From: Bacteroidota bacterium
GTDB taxonomy: Bacteria; Bacteroidota; Bacteroidia; Chitinophagales; BACL12
Direction of reading: 5' to 3'
NCBI GenBank assembly: GCA_029571985.1
Contig: JAKQVC010000093.1
Span: forward strand, 1 to 42,185
DNA length: 42,185 bases
In this document: piece by piece, positions 6,771-42,185 of the stretch
How the letters are laid out: the number at the start of each line of letters is the position of its first letter
How positions within the stretch are numbered: position 1 is the stretch's first letter
Made by a program: the position numbers and the translations under genes
The notes under the pieces: model-generated
Told to the model about the DNA's origin: nothing
Seen by the model: the letters and a program-made list of their open reading frames with translations, nothing else
The model's database searches: none

Positions 6771-7472
6771 ATGGGATTAAAAGCTACCTATAAAGACATC
6801 AAGCGACTACTGTATCGCAGAATTTACATGAGTAAGCAAAAAGAACGATCAATTGCCGATCAGTTTCATATCATGTATTACGACGCCTTTTTATTTGGTA
6901 AAACCTGGGGCGAATCGCATTTCATGGGCACGCATATCAAGAAATTCCCATTCGACACCTGGATATATCAGGAAATGCTGCATGAATTAAAGCCCGATCT
7001 GATTATAGAATGTGGCACCTATAAGGGAGGCAATGCATTATATCTGGCCAGTTTGCTGGATTTTATGCAAAAAGGTGAAATCGTGACGATTGATATCGTG
7101 GATTATCCCGACAAACCGCAGCATCCGCGCATTACCTATTTAACAGGTTCAACCCTTGCACCTGAAATACTGTCTATACTCGATGAAAAAGCAAAAGGAA
7201 AATCCAGCGTATTAGTTATTCTGGATGATGATCATAGTTGCGACCATGTGTTACAGGAAATGGAAATTTATCAGCGATATGTGACACCGGGTAATTATAT
7301 GATAGTTGAAGACAGCAATGTAAACGGACATCCTGTATTTCCTGAACACGGTCCGGGTCCTTATGAGGCGATTGAAAAATTTATGCGTACCAACACGCAA
7401 TTTGAGATTGATAAAGGTCGCGAGCGATATTATATGACGGCCAATCCAAACGGCTATCTGCGCAAAAAATAA
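6771..7472 (+). CDS. CmcI/RhmOMT-like SAM-dependent methyltransferase (cephalosporin hydroxylase family)
   Basis: 233 residues. ECGTYKGGNALYLASL (residues about 81-96) is a clear SAM-binding motif I, with acidic first strand and glycine-rich loop. VTIDIVD follows as motif II. The later block ILDDDHSCDHVLQEM, then VTPGNYMIVEDSNVNGHPV, is characteristic of the CmcI family, which includes the cephalosporin 7-alpha-hydroxylation partner CmcI and rhamnosyl O-methyltransferases of glycolipids; the DDDH acidic cluster binds a divalent metal. In a glycan cluster with dTDP-rhamnose genes elsewhere in the window, sugar O-methylation is the likely job, but the substrate is inferred. It could start at the methionine at residue 20. 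It lies 14 bases after the stub and 7 before the next glycosyltransferase. Confidence 0.87.
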   Translation: MGLKATYKDIKRLLYRRIYMSKQKERSIADQFHIMYYDAFLFGKTWGESHFMGTHIKKFPFDTWIYQEMLHELKPDLIIECGTYKGGNALYLASLLDFMQKGEIVTIDIVDYPDKPQHPRITYLTGSTLAPEILSILDEKAKGKSSVLVILDDDHSCDHVLQEMEIYQRYVTPGNYMIVEDSNVNGHPVFPEHGPGPYEAIEKFMRTNTQFEIDKGRERYYMTANPNGYLRKK

Positions 7473-7479
7473 TTCCGGC

Positions 7480-8286
7480 ATGTCACTTGAAATCGGATTA
7501 GTCATATCAACCTTGCTGGACGGCATATTTCGCGTGCAGCATCAGTTGCCCTTTGGCTGGTCGCAGGTTGTAGTGGTGCATCAGATTCCAGGTGCTGATA
7601 TACAACAATATGCACAGGAACATGACCGGTTAAAAGCACTGGGTGTAGATGTCATCGTGCAGCATTTTGGTGGCTTAAGTAAAAGCAGAAATGCCGGATT
7701 AAAAGCTGTTAAAACAGCATATGCCTTAATCATGGATGACGATGTGCAATTTCCGCAGGATGTAGTTAGTCGTTTGCAGAACAGTATATCGCAATTTCCT
7801 GCAGCGGATATCTATACCTATCAGATTCAGACACCGGAAGGTATTCCCTTTACCCACTATGCAGAAAACCCCTTTATGCATAACAGGCGAAGTATAGCAC
7901 GAGTTCGATCTGTTGAATTATGTGTAAACATGTCGTGGTATAAGGATTCGAAGGTGTCATTTGATGAACAATTTGGATTAGGTGCAACCTTTAAAACCGG
8001 AGAGGAATTTATTTTTCTGAACGATGCGCTGCATAAGCAGGCAAAAGTGCAATATGTGCCAGTAGTAGTCAGTATACATCCGATGGAGAGCTCCGGTAAA
8101 TTGTTGGATGCCGCACAACTTGTGAATAAGGGCGCAATGATAAAACGTGTTTATGGTTGGTTATCTCCAATTTATATGCTTGGATTCGCATTGAAAAAAA
8201 GAAAAGTATATGCACAACATGCTTCTTTTTTTTCAGCTCTACGTTATATGCAACAAGGGCGTTTAAAATATCAATCGTATGGCTGA
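7480..8286 (+). CDS. Glycosyltransferase, GT2-like (GT-A fold)
   Basis: 268 residues. The start is divergent (IGLVISTLLDG instead of the usual S/P-VYN motif), but the core is recognisable: VVVVHQIPG in the nucleotide-binding region, GGLSKSRNAGLKAVKTAYAL (the S-RN helix), then IMDDDVQFPQD with the metal-binding DxD at about 87-89, and an acceptor region containing FGLGATFKTGEEFIFLND, whose acidic pair would supply the catalytic base. Family enzymes transfer a sugar from a nucleotide donor to a growing lipid-linked glycan in the cytoplasm. The donor cannot be told from sequence. It overlaps the next gene by eight bases, indicating cotranslation. The last 40 residues are basic and hydrophobic and may lie on the membrane. 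Confidence 0.87.
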   Translation: MSLEIGLVISTLLDGIFRVQHQLPFGWSQVVVVHQIPGADIQQYAQEHDRLKALGVDVIVQHFGGLSKSRNAGLKAVKTAYALIMDDDVQFPQDVVSRLQNSISQFPAADIYTYQIQTPEGIPFTHYAENPFMHNRRSIARVRSVELCVNMSWYKDSKVSFDEQFGLGATFKTGEEFIFLNDALHKQAKVQYVPVVVSIHPMESSGKLLDAAQLVNKGAMIKRVYGWLSPIYMLGFALKKRKVYAQHASFFSALRYMQQGRLKYQSYG

Positions 8287-9049
8287 TCAACTTGTTTCCA
8301 TCATAACACCGGTTTATAATGCTGCGCGATTTGTACGTGAAACCATTTCATCTGTACAAGCGCAAACCTATACCGATTGGGAGATGTTGCTGGTTGATGA
8401 CGGGAGTAGCGACGACAGCTGGATGATTATTGCAGAGATTGCCGCAATAGATAAACGCCTTCGCCTCATCAGACTTGAAAAAAACAGTGGTGCGGCTGTG
8501 GCACGCAATACCGCAATTAAAGAAGCACGGGGACGATACATCGCCTTCTTAGATGCCGATGATAAATGGGTGCCAGAAAAACTTTCCCGTCAAATTGCAT
8601 TCATGCAGGAAACAGGATGTGCATTATCCTACACAGCGTATTATGTGATGCGTGAAGATGGTCAGCCATCCGGAACAATAATTCATTGTCCTGAAACAAT
8701 ATCCTATCGTCAATTATTAATGGAAAATCGCATTGGTTGCCTGACAGCAATAATGGATGTGCGGCAATGTGGCAAATTAGAAATGCCCTTAATTACTAAG
8801 CGACAGGATTATGGTTTATGGTTAACCATTTTGCGCAACGGCCTTAGTGCCCGCGGTATCAATGCGCCTTTAGCCTATTATCGCAAATACAGTACATCCT
8901 TAAGTGGAAACAAATGGAAAACCATTCGATATAACTGGACTTTGCTCCGCGATCATCAGGGATTATCTGCACCTGTTGCAGCCTGGTATTTTTTCCTGTT
9001 TATCGCTAATAAAACGGTGATGGCAGTGGTGCGAAAAATATTCAGATAA
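8279..9049 (+). CDS. Glycosyltransferase family 2
   Basis: 256 residues with a canonical GT2 front end: VSIITPVYNAARFVRETISS, VDDGSSDDSW, GAAVARNTAIKEARGRYIAF and LDADDKWVPEKL (the DxD at about 96-98). The second half has the KRQDYGLWLTIL motif expected for the acceptor side, in which the aspartate acts as base. Family members of this size add one sugar to a lipid-linked or surface glycan. This is the last gene of the plus-strand glycan run and overlaps the preceding glycosyltransferase by eight bases. The next gene is convergent and only four bases away, so no independent terminator fits between them. Donor and linkage cannot be predicted. Confidence 0.93.
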   Translation: MADQLVSIITPVYNAARFVRETISSVQAQTYTDWEMLLVDDGSSDDSWMIIAEIAAIDKRLRLIRLEKNSGAAVARNTAIKEARGRYIAFLDADDKWVPEKLSRQIAFMQETGCALSYTAYYVMREDGQPSGTIIHCPETISYRQLLMENRIGCLTAIMDVRQCGKLEMPLITKRQDYGLWLTILRNGLSARGINAPLAYYRKYSTSLSGNKWKTIRYNWTLLRDHQGLSAPVAAWYFFLFIANKTVMAVVRKIFR

Positions 9050-14156: not shown

Positions 14157-15656
14157 ATGAAACACTACTTAAAATCTTTTGCTTTTCTGGTAAGCCTTAG
14201 CATTATTTTCAATCAAAAAGGTTTCAATCAGGAAGTATTGATTCAACCCATTCCATTAGACCAGGCCAATTCAGATGATGATATTTTATTTGACATCATC
14301 GACAATAACCTCTATTTAACCGTACATACTCAGAAAGACCCTGGCAAGCTTGTATTGGAAAAACACAATGCTCAATTTGGAATAGATTACCAAACACGCA
14401 TTCAGATTCCTGAAGGATTTACCTTTGCACAACATTGTTTAACCAAAGATTATCTGTTTTTAATGTTCGTTAATGCCGACAACGAGTTACTATTCTATCA
14501 AACGGATGCAACGTTTTTCGATGTAAAAAAAACTCTATCTACATCAATTCCACATGCCGCCAGAGTACCACAGATCTATGGTCTTGGCACAAATATATTT
14601 GCTCATGTTACTATAGATTTGTATAAGGACATGCTACTACAAATTGACTTTACACACAATACAATCATAAGCAATCCGATTGAAATACCTAATTTCAATA
14701 GCAATAAATTTAATATAGACCATGCAGCGTATTATCCTCAAACTGAAGAATTATGTATTTTTCTTTACGGTAAACCAAGCACCCCAAAAAATATATTCGC
14801 TGTGATGTATAATGCATCAGGAATTCAAACTACTTATTTCAACTTCTTTGAAGCTACACAACAAATTTGCACGAATATCGAAATTTCACCTCAAGACGAA
14901 AGTCAGTATGTAATTACCGGGAATTACGCATCCGACAACTACGATTCGCCTGCAGGAATTTTTATTATGGTTGCAAATGGATCAAAAGTCACCCATTTCC
15001 ATACCTATAATTATGGATTGTTAAATAAATTCTTCACCTACCATGACGGGATTAACTTGCCGAAGAATTACAGCCCTGATACGTCAGCTAATACGAATCA
15101 GGACCTAAAACTTCACTATAATATTGCATCTAGTCCGGTTTCAAAGTTCGGCGACATGTATATTTTTGTTGCGGAAGCATATTATCCCGTGTATGGTGAT
15201 TATAAGAAACCCGTATACATAACGAATACCTATAGCAGTGATGCGCGCAATATGCTAAAAGGCTACAAAACAACGCATGCAAGCATAATCGCCTTTGATA
15301 CAAATGGAAACATGCTTTGGAATACACCCATTCAAGTAAAATCTGACAAAAAATCGGCAAAGCACCAACCATCTTTTATAGTAAACCCAGAATCCGATTT
15401 CATTTATGTTGAATATGCATCAGATACCGATATCGAATCTTTTATTGTAAGTCCTCTTGGGTCAGTAAGCAAAAATACAAGCGTATCTATCAATAGTGAA
15501 GGAATACATAATGATTTAATAGCTGAAAACTATTTTGTCAAATACTGGTCGAACCACAATTATGTTACATTTGGATATAAACGCGTGAGCACGACAGAAG
15601 GTCTTATAACACATTTCGCATTGCAATATCAAGCCTATTTATACACCATTGATTAA
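14157..15656 (+). CDS. Exported protein of unknown function, first of a tandem paralogous pair
   Basis: 499 residues with a plausible signal peptide (MKHYLKSFAFLVSLSIIF). The rest is beta-rich with strands separated by short turns, which suggests a propeller or similar all-beta fold, but I do not recognise a named family. It is clearly related to the next gene over its C-terminal half: this protein has GDMYIFVAEAYYPVYGDYKK and later THASIIAFDTNGNMLWN, and the neighbour has GDVYMMVGEAYYPTYRTTTT and THASVAAFSMDGDKLWD at the corresponding places. There is no T9SS sorting domain, so a periplasmic or outer-membrane location is likelier. Its base composition looks more AT-rich than that of its neighbours. 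The two genes are 43 bases apart and probably cotranscribed. Confidence 0.7.
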   Translation: MKHYLKSFAFLVSLSIIFNQKGFNQEVLIQPIPLDQANSDDDILFDIIDNNLYLTVHTQKDPGKLVLEKHNAQFGIDYQTRIQIPEGFTFAQHCLTKDYLFLMFVNADNELLFYQTDATFFDVKKTLSTSIPHAARVPQIYGLGTNIFAHVTIDLYKDMLLQIDFTHNTIISNPIEIPNFNSNKFNIDHAAYYPQTEELCIFLYGKPSTPKNIFAVMYNASGIQTTYFNFFEATQQICTNIEISPQDESQYVITGNYASDNYDSPAGIFIMVANGSKVTHFHTYNYGLLNKFFTYHDGINLPKNYSPDTSANTNQDLKLHYNIASSPVSKFGDMYIFVAEAYYPVYGDYKKPVYITNTYSSDARNMLKGYKTTHASIIAFDTNGNMLWNTPIQVKSDKKSAKHQPSFIVNPESDFIYVEYASDTDIESFIVSPLGSVSKNTSVSINSEGIHNDLIAENYFVKYWSNHNYVTFGYKRVSTTEGLITHFALQYQAYLYTID

Positions 15657-15699
15657 AACTAACCGCCTTAATCGCAACCACATACTTAATCATAAAAAA

Positions 15700-17202
15700 A
15701 TGAAAACTACAATCCAACTGTTATCAATTGCACTTGTGTGTATTCTTTCGAACTTTACAACCCTAAACGCACAAGTAGCCACCGAGAAACACATCGAATT
15801 CGAAACCGGCGAGGGCTGGTTTAATTATCGGGTTGAAACCTTTAAAAATAAAGGCATGCTCCTTTTATCCCAACAGGAAAAAAGTGCAAACTGGAAGGTC
15901 GAAGCCTATTCAGATGACCTGGTCAAGGGTGAGGACAAAACGCTCACTTTACCTAAAGGATACTACATGCGGGCAGAATATACATCTGATTTTGATGAGA
16001 ATCTGCTTTTTTCCAACAAGCAATCACAGTTCATCTTTTATCAGATAGACCCGAATACTTTGGAGCTTACCAAAAGCACAGGCGTATTGCCAAAAAAGAT
16101 GAATATCAACTGGATGGTGGCGCAGGGCGACTTAGCCTTTGTTGGGTTACAAAATAAAAAAGGGCCTACATTACTTAAAATCAATATTAAGGACAATAAA
16201 ACCACACTCATTCCCATTAATATTAGTCCTTATGATTTAAATGATTTATCCATCGAAAAAATTCAAATTCTGGAAGGCACCGGTCAGGTATTTGTTTATA
16301 TAAATGCGTATAACAAAAAGGACCACAATATGTATGTTTTACAAATAGATGAATCCGGTGAGAAAGAAGCCCTGTATAACCTGTCTGCCACCACAGATAA
16401 AAAAATAAGCAGTGTTTCCGCCAGTCCGCTGGGCGATGGCGAATACATTTTTACAGGCACCTACTCATCTAAATCATCCGCTTCCAGCGAGGGCATGTAT
16501 ATTGCCAGTGCAAATGCAGGTGATATCCGCTTTATGAAGTTCTACAACTTTACCGATTTTCAGGATTTCTTTAGTTATCTCCCTAAAAAGAAACAGGAGA
16601 AGATTGAGAAAAAGAAAGAAAAAGCCGAAGATAAAAACAAAGAGCTTTCCTATAACTATTATATAGCTGAACATCCTATCCAGAAAATTGGAGATGTATA
16701 TATGATGGTTGGAGAAGCCTATTATCCCACCTACCGCACAACAACTACAACAACCTATGTGAATGGTAAGCCCACAACAACAACTACTACGGTATTCGAC
16801 GGCTATCAATATACACATGCATCAGTTGCAGCATTTAGCATGGATGGGGATAAATTATGGGATAAAACCTTTACGATGTATCCTTCATACAAGCCATTTT
16901 CCGTGAAGCGGTTTATCTCGATCAATACTACGAATGATAAAATTGATTTATTGTTCGCCTCTGAAAACAGCATCCGGTCATTTTCTGTAGATGTGGAAGG
17001 CAATGTAGCCAATGAGCGCTCTGTAAACCTGATTACAGAAACGGATGACGAGGAAAAGGTGAAACGCTCGAGCTCAAACCTGACACATTGGTTCGACAAC
17101 TATTTCATTGCTTCCGGATATCAGACGATCAAGAATTCTGATGAAAAGATTGGTAATAAGAAAAGGAGTATTTTCTTTATTAATAAAATTACTTACGAAT
17201 AA
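15700..17202 (+). CDS. Exported protein of unknown function, second of a tandem paralogous pair
   Basis: About 500 residues from the ATG at 15700, which opens a clean signal peptide (MKTTIQLLSIALVCILSNFT, cleavage near LNAQ). A longer frame back to 15649 overlaps the previous gene but adds only a polar stretch, so I reject it. The protein shares the GDVYMMVGEAYYPTY and THASVAAF-DGDKLWDK elements with the preceding gene. It also has a lysine/glutamate-rich insert (KKKQEKIEKKKEKAEDK) and a threonine-rich segment either side of VNGKP, both probably surface loops. No catalytic motif is visible. Expected location is periplasm or outer membrane. The pair looks like a duplication followed by divergence. 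Confidence 0.72.
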   Translation: MKTTIQLLSIALVCILSNFTTLNAQVATEKHIEFETGEGWFNYRVETFKNKGMLLLSQQEKSANWKVEAYSDDLVKGEDKTLTLPKGYYMRAEYTSDFDENLLFSNKQSQFIFYQIDPNTLELTKSTGVLPKKMNINWMVAQGDLAFVGLQNKKGPTLLKINIKDNKTTLIPINISPYDLNDLSIEKIQILEGTGQVFVYINAYNKKDHNMYVLQIDESGEKEALYNLSATTDKKISSVSASPLGDGEYIFTGTYSSKSSASSEGMYIASANAGDIRFMKFYNFTDFQDFFSYLPKKKQEKIEKKKEKAEDKNKELSYNYYIAEHPIQKIGDVYMMVGEAYYPTYRTTTTTTYVNGKPTTTTTTVFDGYQYTHASVAAFSMDGDKLWDKTFTMYPSYKPFSVKRFISINTTNDKIDLLFASENSIRSFSVDVEGNVANERSVNLITETDDEEKVKRSSSNLTHWFDNYFIASGYQTIKNSDEKIGNKKRSIFFINKITYE

Positions 17203-22999: not shown

Positions 23000-23824
23000 T
23001 TACGGCCTGCGCATCGTTTGCAAACATGCCTGCCAGTCATCGTGATAATAGGCATCTATTTTTTTCAAAATCTCCGGATCAATCAATGGTTTTTTCGAAA
23101 GCCAGGAGGCAGGTATGAGATGGGCACTATATAAAATTACATAACAAAGCCACATCCTCGGCCTGCGACGAATCCAGGTTTTCCATCGCGGTCCATTTGG
23201 ATTATAAACCGGTATCTTAAAAATACGCTTGGCAACAATCAACATCCATTTCAATTGTTTTTCATTATAGGATGCGTGATGTTTATCAACAGAAATATGC
23301 TCTACCTGGCAGTTTACACCCATCTGCGCAGCTAAGTCAGTTACAAACTGTTGCGGATTGCGACGCAAATCTTCATACAGACATACAATAGGCGGTTCTG
23401 TAAAATACTGTTTTAGAATAGCGATTTTCGGATAGAGTAAAACATCACTTCGCTTCCAGTATCCGGTATCGTGTGTTACATCAAAAAATTCAGTAAAAGT
23501 TAAGGGATAGCCATTTTTAAGAAATCGCCGGTATTGGGATGCGATCCATTGGGCATTGCTGCGCAACAGAATAATAGGCGTAGTGTCAGGCCTCACCGCA
23601 GCAAACTTTTTAACTTCCCGCTCCAGTTGCTGATCCATTTCGCGGCTGATTAACACCTTGGGCTGTTGGCTGCCGGCAATCGTTTCCTTCCAATGGCGAT
23701 ATTGGGTGGGATGCAGGTAGGTTATACCCTCAAAATGGCCGAATACTTTATTCTGCAGCCAGGTTGAGGCTGTTTTTCCCAACCCCACATGAAAGTATAC
23801 TTCAGGCTTGTTATCGGTACCCAT
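23000..23824 (-). CDS. Sulfotransferase family protein (P-loop, PAPS-dependent)
   Basis: 274 residues. The start HVGLGKTASTWLQNKVF is the 5'-phosphosulfate-binding loop of sulfotransferases, with the Lys-Thr-(A/G)-(S/T)-T order seen in the family. ILLRSNAQWIASQYRRFLKN (about residues 102-121) fits the 3'-phosphate-binding strand and helix (R..S near the start). YEDLRRNPQQFVTDLAAQMG is the usual later block. These enzymes move sulfate from PAPS to sugars or other acceptors and release PAP. The acceptor cannot be read from sequence. No signal peptide or membrane span, so cytoplasmic. The gene stands alone between a convergent and a divergent neighbour, but the window also has a CysQ domain able to clear PAP, which is suggestive. 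Confidence 0.88.
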   Translation of the reverse strand: MGTDNKPEVYFHVGLGKTASTWLQNKVFGHFEGITYLHPTQYRHWKETIAGSQQPKVLISREMDQQLEREVKKFAAVRPDTTPIILLRSNAQWIASQYRRFLKNGYPLTFTEFFDVTHDTGYWKRSDVLLYPKIAILKQYFTEPPIVCLYEDLRRNPQQFVTDLAAQMGVNCQVEHISVDKHHASYNEKQLKWMLIVAKRIFKIPVYNPNGPRWKTWIRRRPRMWLCYVILYSAHLIPASWLSKKPLIDPEILKKIDAYYHDDWQACLQTMRRP

Positions 23825-38054: not shown

Positions 38055-39695
38055 TCAGGCCTTTTCTACGATAAAGTATGGATTAAGCAGGTTCTCCTTG
38101 TTATAGGTTAAATCCGTTGTGCTACCATAAATTTTCACACGTGCACCTGCTTCCAAAACAACGGCATGACCAGCAGCAGTGTCCCATTCCATAGTAGGTC
38201 CGAGGCGCGGATACACATCAGCCTTTCCTTCTGCTACGAGGCAGAATTTGAGTGAACTTCCTGCCGGAACGAAATCTACTGTTGCATATTTCGCTTCCAT
38301 ATCTTTCAAATAAGCGTCAAATTCCGGGCTTGGATGTGACCTGCTTCCAATCAAAGCGATGGTGTTTTCACGTGGTTCTGCCACCTGAAGTGAAGTGGTA
38401 TTGCCATGCTCATCAATTTTAAAGGCTCCTTTACCGGCAGTGGCATAATACATATGATTGCGGGCAGGAACACCTACAACACCCATTATGGGTTTGCCGT
38501 TATGGATGAGGGCAATATTCACGGTAAATTCGCCATTCTTTTTGATAAACTCCTTCGTGCCATCAAGAGGATCTACCAGCCATAACAATGACCAGTTTTT
38601 GCGCTCCTCATAACCTAATAACTTATTTTCTTCACTGATAATCGGAATTTCAGGGAATTGCTCTTTCAGTGCGGCAATGATTACCGCATTGGAAGCTTTA
38701 TCAGCTTTGGTCAGTGGCGAGTTATCGCTTTTATCTGTAACAGCAAAATCGTCGGTAGCATATATATGCATGATTTCTTTTCCAGCCGCTTCTGCAATCG
38801 CAATAATACTTTTAACATCGATGTTGTTTGACATTTCGTTCATTTTTAATTGGTGGATACAATCTTCCAAAGCAGTTTGCCAGGAAGGTATTTCAAATTG
38901 TAATAATTGTGCTGTTTGAGAGCAGTCCAAAACGGAATAAGCCGGTCTTTTTGCCGGTGTCGGATAATCAGACGTTGCAATCGGATTTACCTGACATGGC
39001 AAATCATTTAATTCCATAATGCGTTTTGCAAATCCTGCCCAGGAAGTGCTGCCGGCATTCGAGAAATGATAGATGCCGAAAGGTACAGCCGGTAATTTTT
39101 CAATAAACCTGAAAATAACATCAGCAAGATCACGGGCATAAGTAGGACAGCCTACCTGATCATCTACCACGCCCAGACTTTCGCGCTCCTTGCCGAGGCG
39201 AATCATAGTTTTCATGAAATTGTTACCAAAGGTGCTATACACCCAACTGGTGCGAATTAAAATCGTTTTCGAATTTAATGAAAGTGCCCTGTATTCACCT
39301 TCTGCTTTTGTTTGACCATATACAGACAAGGGTTGTACCGGATGATCAATCGTATACGGATGTGTACCTTGTCCGTCGAAAACAAAATCTGTTGAAATAT
39401 GGAAGAGCACTGCCTGTGCTGCCTGACAGGCGTTGGCCAGATTCTCGACTCCGGTAACATTTATTGCGTGACATAAAGCTGCATCACTTTCCGCTTTATC
39501 AACCGCTGTGTATGCCGCGCAATTAATACAGATATCAAAGGCATGCGCTGCAAAATAATTTTTCACAGCTGATGCATCTGTAATATCCAATTCATCCACA
39601 TCTACAAAAACATAGGTATGCTGGCCGCGTTGTCGGGCGATGCGGCGGATTTCATTTCCCAGCTGGCCATTAGAACCTGTTACAAGTATGTGCAT
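38055..39695 (-). CDS. rfbD-cysQ: RfbD-CysQ fusion: dTDP-4-dehydrorhamnose reductase + 3'(2'),5'-bisphosphate nucleotidase
   Basis: 546 residues in one open frame from ATG 39695; the ORF extends upstream to 39755 but overlaps rfbC there. Residues 1-284 are RfbD: GSNGQLG at 7-13 for NAD(P)H, STDFVFDG, and the catalytic Y126-G-Q-T-K130. It reduces dTDP-4-keto-rhamnose to dTDP-L-rhamnose. Residues 285/288-546 are CysQ: EE at 355-356, DPLDGT at 375-380 and EWDTAAGHA at 503-511, the metal and phosphate site of the inositol monophosphatase superfamily; it removes the 3'-phosphate of PAP. Both domains look complete. The join is QLKMNEMSNN, and an A5 run (38843-38847) falls in it. With four A's RfbD would end QLK-stop and CysQ would start in the same ATGA. 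So this is a one-base fusion or a sequence error; separate initiation at 38843 is also possible. It follows rfbC by 10 bases. Confidence 0.9.
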   Translation of the reverse strand: MHILVTGSNGQLGNEIRRIARQRGQHTYVFVDVDELDITDASAVKNYFAAHAFDICINCAAYTAVDKAESDAALCHAINVTGVENLANACQAAQAVLFHISTDFVFDGQGTHPYTIDHPVQPLSVYGQTKAEGEYRALSLNSKTILIRTSWVYSTFGNNFMKTMIRLGKERESLGVVDDQVGCPTYARDLADVIFRFIEKLPAVPFGIYHFSNAGSTSWAGFAKRIMELNDLPCQVNPIATSDYPTPAKRPAYSVLDCSQTAQLLQFEIPSWQTALEDCIHQLKMNEMSNNIDVKSIIAIAEAAGKEIMHIYATDDFAVTDKSDNSPLTKADKASNAVIIAALKEQFPEIPIISEENKLLGYEERKNWSLLWLVDPLDGTKEFIKKNGEFTVNIALIHNGKPIMGVVGVPARNHMYYATAGKGAFKIDEHGNTTSLQVAEPRENTIALIGSRSHPSPEFDAYLKDMEAKYATVDFVPAGSSLKFCLVAEGKADVYPRLGPTMEWDTAAGHAVVLEAGARVKIYGSTTDLTYNKENLLNPYFIVEKA

Positions 39696-39705
39696 GTTTT
39701 CCGGA

Positions 39706-40260
39706 TTAATATTGAAAGTTATTTTTAGCATCTGCAAAGAATGGCAGCGCTGCATCTTTTTCGCTCACCTGAATCAACGATGGATCGAGTTGCCAGTCAA
39801 TGCCAATTGTCGGATCATTAAACCGAATCCCTGCATCATGTTCTTTGTTATAATAATTATCACATTTATAAAAGAAAGTTGCCGTATCGCTTAATACCAC
39901 AAATCCATGTGCAAATCCTCTTGGAATATAAAGCTGCTTTTTATTTTCGGCTGATAACACAATTGAAAAATGCTGTCCGAATGTTGGAGAGCCTTTCCGG
40001 ATATCTACAGCAACGTCTAAAACTTCACCCGTAATTACACGAACTAATTTAGCCTGTGCGTAGGGTGCTAATTGATAATGCAATCCGCGCAACACACCTT
40101 TTGTGCTGAAACTCTGATTATCTTGCACAAATTCGGTGTTGATGCCTTTAGCACCGAAAACCTGTGCATTAAAGGATTCATAAAAGTAACCACGTGCATC
40201 AGCAAAAACCTGCGGTTCAAATACGTATAATCCGGTAATAGGGGTATCAATAAAAGGCAT
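39706..40260 (-). CDS. rfbC: dTDP-4-dehydrorhamnose 3,5-epimerase
   Basis: 184 residues. FDTPI-like start (FIDTPITGLYVFEPQVFAD), then YFYESFNAQVF, NQSFSTKGVLRGLHYQLAPY (the active-site His), VDIRKGSPTFG and YIPRGFAHGF, the cupin core of RfbC. It epimerises C3 and C5 of the 4-keto sugar in dTDP-rhamnose synthesis, between RfbB and RfbD. The size is normal. An exact TATTTTTG promoter box lies upstream. It ends 10 bases before the RfbD-CysQ start, so both are cotranscribed. Confidence 0.97.
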   Translation of the reverse strand: MPFIDTPITGLYVFEPQVFADARGYFYESFNAQVFGAKGINTEFVQDNQSFSTKGVLRGLHYQLAPYAQAKLVRVITGEVLDVAVDIRKGSPTFGQHFSIVLSAENKKQLYIPRGFAHGFVVLSDTATFFYKCDNYYNKEHDAGIRFNDPTIGIDWQLDPSLIQVSEKDAALPFFADAKNNFQY

Positions 40261-40466: not shown

Positions 40467-41219
40467 TTACAAGGTGTTATTGAGCAATTGCCGGCCTGCC
40501 AGCAGCTGTTGCACATGTTTATCCATCATAGCCTGTGCCAGCATCGGCAATTGTGCGGTGCGATGAATATCTGTTCCCAAAAAACTAATCAGTCCCGCTT
40601 CAGCGAGTGCTTTTACAATCCGTTTTTGCACTTCACCATAATCGCCGGTAAAGGAGCGGAGATTTGCCTGCAGCAAGATATCTGCATCGCGTAATTGTTC
40701 ATACTCTTTTAACGCATTTTTTTTGAACATATAAGGATATCGTTCGGCATGGGCAAGCACAGGTTTATATCCGGCGAGTCTCAATTCAAAAAGCGACTCC
40801 TGCAATTTCAATTCGGGTTGCGTCATATTTACTTCCACCAGTACATAGTGTTCACCAAACGTGAGCAACTTTTCTCCATTGCGAATTCTATCGGGGAACT
40901 CGGTATCTATATAGTATTCAGCAGCCGCCTGCACATCAGGTTGCGTTGTGTCGGTATAACCGGATTTAAGTTCCGTGAGTTTTTCCTGTATGCGGGCAAT
41001 CGTATTATCAAATACGCCCGGCATACAATGCGGAGTTGTAATAAAGCGCGAAAATCCGAGTTCCTGTAAACCGGCAATGAGCTGTTTACTTTCATCTATA
41101 TTACCGGCACCATCGTCAATTCCGGGAAGTAAATGCGCATGCATATCTGTGCGCAACACGCTGAAATCCAGCAGGTCATTTTTTCGGGATCCAAACAGAT
41201 TTCCGAAAATTCCGGACAT
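40467..41219 (-). CDS. CpsB/YwqE-type tyrosine-protein phosphatase (PHP domain)
   Basis: 250 residues. TDMHAHLLPGIDDGAGN is the PHP metal motif of the CapC/CpsB/YwqE family. ITTPHCMPGVFDN, then VLAHAERYPYM and FLGTDIHRT supply further metal and catalytic residues. These manganese-dependent phosphatases remove phosphate from the tyrosine-rich tail of capsule polymerisation kinases and so control chain length. The matching kinase (Wzc/CapB-like) is not in the window. It overlaps the stop of rfbB by one base (TAATG), which suggests translational coupling. The spacing and neighbours place it in a surface-polysaccharide operon. Confidence 0.92.
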   Translation of the reverse strand: MSGIFGNLFGSRKNDLLDFSVLRTDMHAHLLPGIDDGAGNIDESKQLIAGLQELGFSRFITTPHCMPGVFDNTIARIQEKLTELKSGYTDTTQPDVQAAAEYYIDTEFPDRIRNGEKLLTFGEHYVLVEVNMTQPELKLQESLFELRLAGYKPVLAHAERYPYMFKKNALKEYEQLRDADILLQANLRSFTGDYGEVQKRIVKALAEAGLISFLGTDIHRTAQLPMLAQAMMDKHVQQLLAGRQLLNNTL

Positions 41220-42185
41220 TACTTTACAGTATATTGTTGCTCGTAATATTGTTTATACGCGCCGCTGGTAACCTCTTCCAGCCATTGACCATTTGATAAA
41301 TACCAGTCGACTGTTTTTTCGAGACCTTCTTCAAATTGCAAAGATGGTTTCCATCCTAACGCTGCATTTAATTTAGACGCATCGATGGCATAACGCATAT
41401 CATGCCCAGGCCTGTCGGTAACATAGGTAATTAATCCGGCGGAAGTGCCTTCAGGACGATTTAATTTCTTGTCCATAATACGGCATAGCACGTGAATTAA
41501 GTCAATATTCTTCCACTCATTAAAACCACCGATATTATATGTTTCACCATTCACACCTTTATGTAATATGGTATCAATGGCACGTGCATGATCTTCCACC
41601 CACAACCAATCGCGAATATTTTCACCTTTTCCATAAACCGGAATTGGTTTACTATTCTTGATATTATTAATAGCCAGTGGAATTAATTTTTCAGGGAATT
41701 GATAACTGCCATAATTATTACTACAATTAGAAATAACGACCGGCATACCATAGGTATCGTGATAGGCTCTTACAAAATGATCACTTGAAGCTTTCGATGC
41801 CGAATAAGGGCTATGCGGATCGTAAGGGGTTGTTTCCAGGAAAAATCCTGTTTCACCTAATGTGCCATATACTTCATCTGTAGAAATATGGTAGAATAAT
41901 TTACCCTCGTAATTTTGTTTCCATATATGGCGAGCTGCGTTTAATAACACACAGGTTCCAACTACATTAGTCACCACAAATTCAATCGGATTGGCTATAC
42001 TTCTGTCAACATGACTTTCGGCAGCCAGATGCACCACCATATCAAACTGATATTGTTCAAACAAGTCGGTTATAAAGGCTGTATCTGTGATATCACCTTT
42101 TACGAATGTATAATTTGATGCGGATTCGATATCACGCAAATTCGACAAATTACCTGCATAGGTGAGTTTGTCGAGGTTAATGATG
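41219..42185 (-). CDS. rfbB: dTDP-glucose 4,6-dehydratase, 5' end outside window
   Basis: At least 322 residues; the frame is open to the last base of the window, and the residues just before the first internal start read NLDKLTYAGN, which is the RfbB N-terminus, so the gene is cut by the edge. VHLAAESHVDRSI, ISTDEVYGTLG (the T-D-E triad), then YSASKASSDHFVRAY (catalytic Tyr and Lys) and NNYGSYQFPEKLIP follow. The enzyme makes dTDP-4-keto-6-deoxyglucose, first committed step after RfbA. RfbA is not seen here and may lie upstream. It is the first visible gene of the minus-strand run to rfbD-cysQ. Confidence 0.96.
   Translation of the reverse strand, partial: IINLDKLTYAGNLSNLRDIESASNYTFVKGDITDTAFITDLFEQYQFDMVVHLAAESHVDRSIANPIEFVVTNVVGTCVLLNAARHIWKQNYEGKLFYHISTDEVYGTLGETGFFLETTPYDPHSPYSASKASSDHFVRAYHDTYGMPVVISNCSNNYGSYQFPEKLIPLAINNIKNSKPIPVYGKGENIRDWLWVEDHARAIDTILHKGVNGETYNIGGFNEWKNIDLIHVLCRIMDKKLNRPEGTSAGLITYVTDRPGHDMRYAIDASKLNAALGWKPSLQFEEGLEKTVDWYLSNGQWLEEVTSGAYKQYYEQQYTVK

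Follow-up and report, generated by a model that had tools for sequence, protein, structure and literature searches.

The window, that is, the whole 42,185-nucleotide stretch of DNA that was analyzed, carries a minus-strand row of genes in the order rmlB-cpsB-rmlC-rmlD-cysQ. The row ends with a single open reading frame (ORF), 39695..38055, whose translation comprises 546 amino acids and a stop codon. The features relevant to this study are listed below in window coordinates.

41219..42184, minus strand: rmlB, dTDP-glucose 4,6-dehydratase, truncated where the contig stops (TIGR01181, 434 bits, cut-off 365)
40467..41219, minus strand: CpsB/CapC-type capsule protein (PF19567, 143 bits)
39706..40260, minus strand: rmlC, dTDP-4-dehydrorhamnose 3,5-epimerase, 10 bases upstream of the fusion (PF00908; TIGR01221, 250 bits, cut-off 156)
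38055..39695, minus strand: fused rmlD-cysQ gene, 546 amino acids (domain profiles and fused homologues)
38844..39695, minus strand: RmlD (dTDP-4-dehydrorhamnose reductase) part, residues 1-284 (TIGR01214, 309 bits; structure 1vl0)
38820..38843, minus strand: junction, residues 285-292 (MNEMSNNI), with a run of five A's and two ATG codons (from the sequence)
38058..38819, minus strand: CysQ (3'(2'),5'-bisphosphate nucleotidase) part, residues 293-546 (TIGR01331, 289 bits; structure 3b8b)
23000..23824, minus strand: distant sulfotransferase-like ORF, 14 kb from the fused gene and outside the operon (PF00685, E 0.1)

An alternative, longer frame of the fused gene opens at position 39755. The start at 39695, which gives MHILVTGSNGQLG, is the usual RmlD start and lies 10 bases past the end of rmlC. 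The preliminary description of this DNA had proposed that a complete RfbD (RmlD) and a complete PAP phosphatase are joined by a few residues in one ORF. The NCBIfam equivalog profiles bear this out: the RmlD half exceeded the TIGR01214 cut-off of 224 bits over residues 3-282 (profile positions 2-284 of 285), and the CysQ half exceeded the TIGR01331 cut-off of 229 bits over residues 295-544 (profile positions 3-249 of 250), in agreement with the Pfam matches PF04321 and PF00459, respectively. The active-site residues were also retained in each domain, as had been claimed. The RmlD half contains the GxxGxxG cofactor motif (TGSNGQLG at residue 6) and the catalytic T, Y, and K residues (STD at 101, YGQTK at 126), and the CysQ half contains the metal-site motifs of the inositol monophosphatase fold (SEEN at 354, DPLDGT at 375, EWDTAA at 503). 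With slight variants only, the motifs of both halves are preserved across nine aligned full-length fused proteins. Both halves look active, each resembling an ordinary enzyme of its own family; the most likely reactions, as predicted from the sequence, are the NAD(P)H-dependent reduction of dTDP-4-dehydrorhamnose and the hydrolysis of PAP to AMP.

The nearest solved structures were 1vl0 for the RmlD half (TM 0.97 on the target) and 3b8b, CysQ of B. thetaiotaomicron, for the CysQ half (TM 0.83). Among the sequence-matching structures, no solved chain spans both halves. The AlphaFold2 model, based on a 22-row alignment (mean pLDDT 91, pTM 0.74), consists of two confident standard folds, with helix 272-291 meeting helix 294-314 at the junction; a pTM of 0.74 does not fix the relative arrangement of the two domains.

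Elsewhere in the window, an ORF at 6771-7472 resembles rhamnosyl O-methyltransferase/CmcI (187 bits to PF04989; NCBIfam cut-off not reached) and adjoins two GT2 glycosyltransferases at 7480-9049, a combination that suggests a methylated sugar. Two successive large ORFs of 499 and 517 amino acids at 14157-17202 gave no significant Pfam match.

Integrity of the junction

The run of five identical bases to which the preliminary description had drawn attention is present as described (T5 at 38843-38847 on the plus strand). The two ATG codons of the junction occupy positions 38843-38841 and 38834-38832 of the minus strand, and the second aligns with an ATG that the fused family members have retained. 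A search for matches spanning both domains, the check that had been proposed, identified fused proteins in another species of the same genus (G001; 79% identity over exactly 546 residues without a gap) and in another genus of the same family (G004; 69% identity over 393 residues up to a contig end). In both genomes the junction reads TTA AAA CAA CAG GAA ATG, in frame and without the five-A run; RfbD and CysQ are thus not always separate in relatives. That an extra A at 38843-38847, introduced by sequencing or assembly, joined genes that truly overlap as ATGA is the least probable of the readings considered: four A's would stop RmlD at its usual TGA overlapping the CysQ start, and overlapping genes occur at the same spot in G002 of the same family, but the independent assemblies of G001 and G004, in frame across a different, run-free junction, contradict such an error. 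Two full domains in one frame are not a product of chance and were seen in independent assemblies. We conclude that the RmlD-CysQ fusion is real and does not result from a miscounted A-run.

Comparison of the window with G001 yielded dN values of 0.21 for the RmlD half and 0.11 for the CysQ half, with saturated dS and no indel in 546 codons. The low dN at saturated dS indicates purifying selection on both halves and a frame that has long been kept.

Distribution of the fused gene

Relatives were sampled in 100 genomes, all from Chitinophagales, and the adjacency rows were compiled by hand from a homologue search. In 42 of the 100 genomes, rmlD immediately precedes cysQ. Where the two genes are unfused, they mostly show a slight overlap or a gap of a few bases, and several pairs share one frame that is interrupted by a lone stop codon. 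Full fusions were found in 12 genomes of four families, as listed here.

Family f1: G000, which is the window's own genome, G001, and G004 (gene of G004 cut by a contig end)
Family f22: G072, G039, and G089
Family f6: G043, G010, and G065 (gene of G065 cut by a contig end)
Family f13: G077, G098, and G092 (gene of G092 cut by a contig end)

The fused state is present in every sampled member of genera g1, g9, g25, and g53, and no reversal to separate genes was observed among them. Unfused relatives illustrate two routes by which neighboring operon genes can become one enzyme. In family f1, the rmlD and cysQ frames of G002 overlap at the site of the fusion, and a small indel would be enough to make them one. 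In family f13, G146 and G142 retain a stop codon at the point where the frame of G077 and G098 continues; here, loss of the stop would suffice. The fused gene of G077 and G098 follows rmlC and two ORFs that, judged by eye, resemble Wza and Wzc exporters.

A single origin, with all fusions in one clade, was rejected by AU tests (p-AU 1e-39 for the two-domain tree). The fused state required a minimum of five changes in the two-domain tree and of three (RmlD) and five (CysQ) changes in the single-domain trees. Some of these changes may be gains followed by losses; the fusion probably arose several times. A further candidate, a 590-amino-acid open frame in G055, was rejected since it represents two separate ORFs. 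Apart from the window's own, no fusion was detected in samples of 395 genomes of the class (E 1e-105) and 395 genomes of the phylum (E 1e-100), which together comprise about 790 genomes, some drawn twice. No second close RmlD or CysQ was found in the fused genomes, all other matches being at most 36% identical; the one exception is G004, in which a second contig carries the remainder of its own CysQ. All 12 fused genes retain an ATG where CysQ ancestrally began. A free second CysQ product is therefore possible, and CysQ could also be made separately from this internal ATG.

Sulfation genes in genomes with the fused gene

The genome from which the window derives contains cysC-cysD-cysN on contig C164, a second gene of the PAPS reductase family, and ten Sulfotransfer_3 matches. 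A polysaccharide cluster on contig C280 (41000-60000) comprises four sulfotransferase genes and an MBOAT acyltransferase gene. The main sulfotransferase cluster sits on a contig other than that of the fused gene. In the flavobacterium Bizionia myxarmorum (L027:3483-10863), rmlB-rmlA-rmlC-rmlD-cysQ-DUF2061-cysC-cysD-cysN form one row, in which cysC and DUF2061 were confirmed and the other genes were assigned by sequence likeness. The DUF2061 protein is a predicted membrane protein, here encoded amid sulfate genes.

The sulfotransferase that the preliminary description had placed in the window proved to be a distant relative, the sub-threshold ORF at 23000..23824. It belongs to a divergent protein family (44-61% identity in family relatives): the G004 homologue reaches the PF00685 threshold of 22 bits, and the other members score less than the Pfam cut-off. 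The structure model of the ORF (pLDDT 39) was useless. The suggested link to sulfation draws its support from the genome, with its cysC-cysD-cysN genes and about ten sulfotransferase matches, and from the Bizionia row. No APS kinase was detectable in the fused genomes G077 and G098, though cysD and cysN are present, and the link to sulfation is therefore tentative in these two genomes. Both of them contain sulfotransferase matches, and a formyltransferase-like ORF adjoins cysD-cysN in place of cysC (L137:2697-3452, plus strand; L138:2617-3366, minus strand). In G043, which also has the fusion, cysD lies at a contig edge. CysQ would still be useful there for clearing the PAP released by holo-ACP synthase. 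Judged by gene content, a sulfated rhamnose glycan is plausible.

A probable bifunctional RmlD-CysQ protein and its known counterparts

The best explanation, which we hold with good confidence, is a genuine bifunctional RmlD-CysQ protein that derives from fused adjacent co-directional genes of a polysaccharide-forming bacterium of the Chitinophagales and would serve both dTDP-rhamnose supply and PAP disposal. The operon neighbors rmlD and cysQ would have been joined by loss of a stop codon or by a small indel, giving one 60-kDa protein with both halves presumably active. Its RmlD half would convert dTDP-4-dehydro-L-rhamnose to dTDP-L-rhamnose, and its CysQ half would produce AMP by hydrolysis of the PAP that PAPS-dependent sulfotransferases, PAPS reductase, or holo-ACP synthase leave behind. 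Provided that translation runs through the whole frame, equal dosage and co-location of both enzymes are certain. The benefit, if any, would lie in fixed-ratio co-expression for a rhamnose-containing, probably sulfated exopolysaccharide.

It is quite possible, though we stop short of favoring it, that the joining of overlapping operon neighbors was near-neutral and entailed co-translation at most, with free CysQ perhaps still being made. Short overlaps and same-frame pairs with a single stop are common, rmlD and cysQ are ordinary operon neighbors throughout the order, fusion of neighbors can be near-neutral, and the ancestral CysQ start codon persists in every fused gene. However, frame and length were held within the genus despite saturated synonymous divergence, and the fused genera showed no reversal. 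Selection for coupling, through PAP removal tethered to rhamnose supply or recruitment of both enzymes to one site, appears unlikely. Such selection would be consistent with the three to five changes on the trees, the retention of the fusion throughout the sampled members of its four genera, the adjacency of rmlD and cysQ to PAPS genes in Bizionia, and the near-continuous helix over the junction in the AlphaFold2 model. Yet one mutation readily fuses overlapping neighbors, so that recurrence is expected without selection; the pTM leaves the domain arrangement unfixed; and the two reactions share no intermediate, which also makes direct channelling unlikely. We are equally doubtful that a recurrently selected RmlD-CysQ enzyme balances sulfated rhamnose glycan synthesis and sulfate-donor recycling on one polypeptide. 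Very little credence is given to the idea that the CysQ half uses a substrate other than PAP, such as the 2'-phosphate of NADP(H), and thereby tunes the cofactor pool of RmlD: NADP phosphatases belong to the same superfamily (the match to NF010678 is weak, at 33 bits) and NAD(P)H is the cofactor of RmlD, but TIGR01331 matched well above its cut-off while rival phosphatase families scored below theirs, PAP turnover would otherwise be left without an enzyme because this is the genome's sole close CysQ, and the literature search retrieved no supporting paper.

Returning to the proposed bifunctional protein, the repeated rmlD-cysQ fusion provides Rosetta-stone evidence for a product common to rhamnose activation and PAP recycling in these bacteria. 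It suggests that members of an order sampled here largely by metagenome assemblies form sulfated, rhamnose-containing exopolysaccharides. No description of an RmlD-CysQ fusion was found in our search of open-licence papers. The fusion is real, conserved, recurrent, and apparently undescribed, yet built from ordinary parts. With solved RmlD/RfbD proteins (TIGR01214; 1vl0, 4wpg, 1kbz) it shares the whole domain, the cofactor and STD/YxxxK motifs, and about 36-42% identity; those proteins are single-enzyme chains, whereas the fused protein adds a C-terminal CysQ. With CysQ of Bacteroides thetaiotaomicron (3b8b; TIGR01331) it likewise shares the whole domain, the metal-site motifs, and 46% identity but, in contrast to free CysQ, the fused CysQ is reached via the frame of another enzyme. 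Unfused rmlD-cysQ neighbors in Chitinophagales and flavobacteria, for example in the Bizionia row, have the same order and often overlapping ends, but a stop codon or frame offset keeps the two proteins apart. Among the systems described so far, the sulfated capsule locus of Cobetia marina comes closest. Its glycan contains sulfated rhamnose and involves rml genes, sulfotransferases, and a cysN/C-cysD-cysQ operon (PMC11766843); in this member of a different phylum, the genes are unfused and lie in distinct operons.
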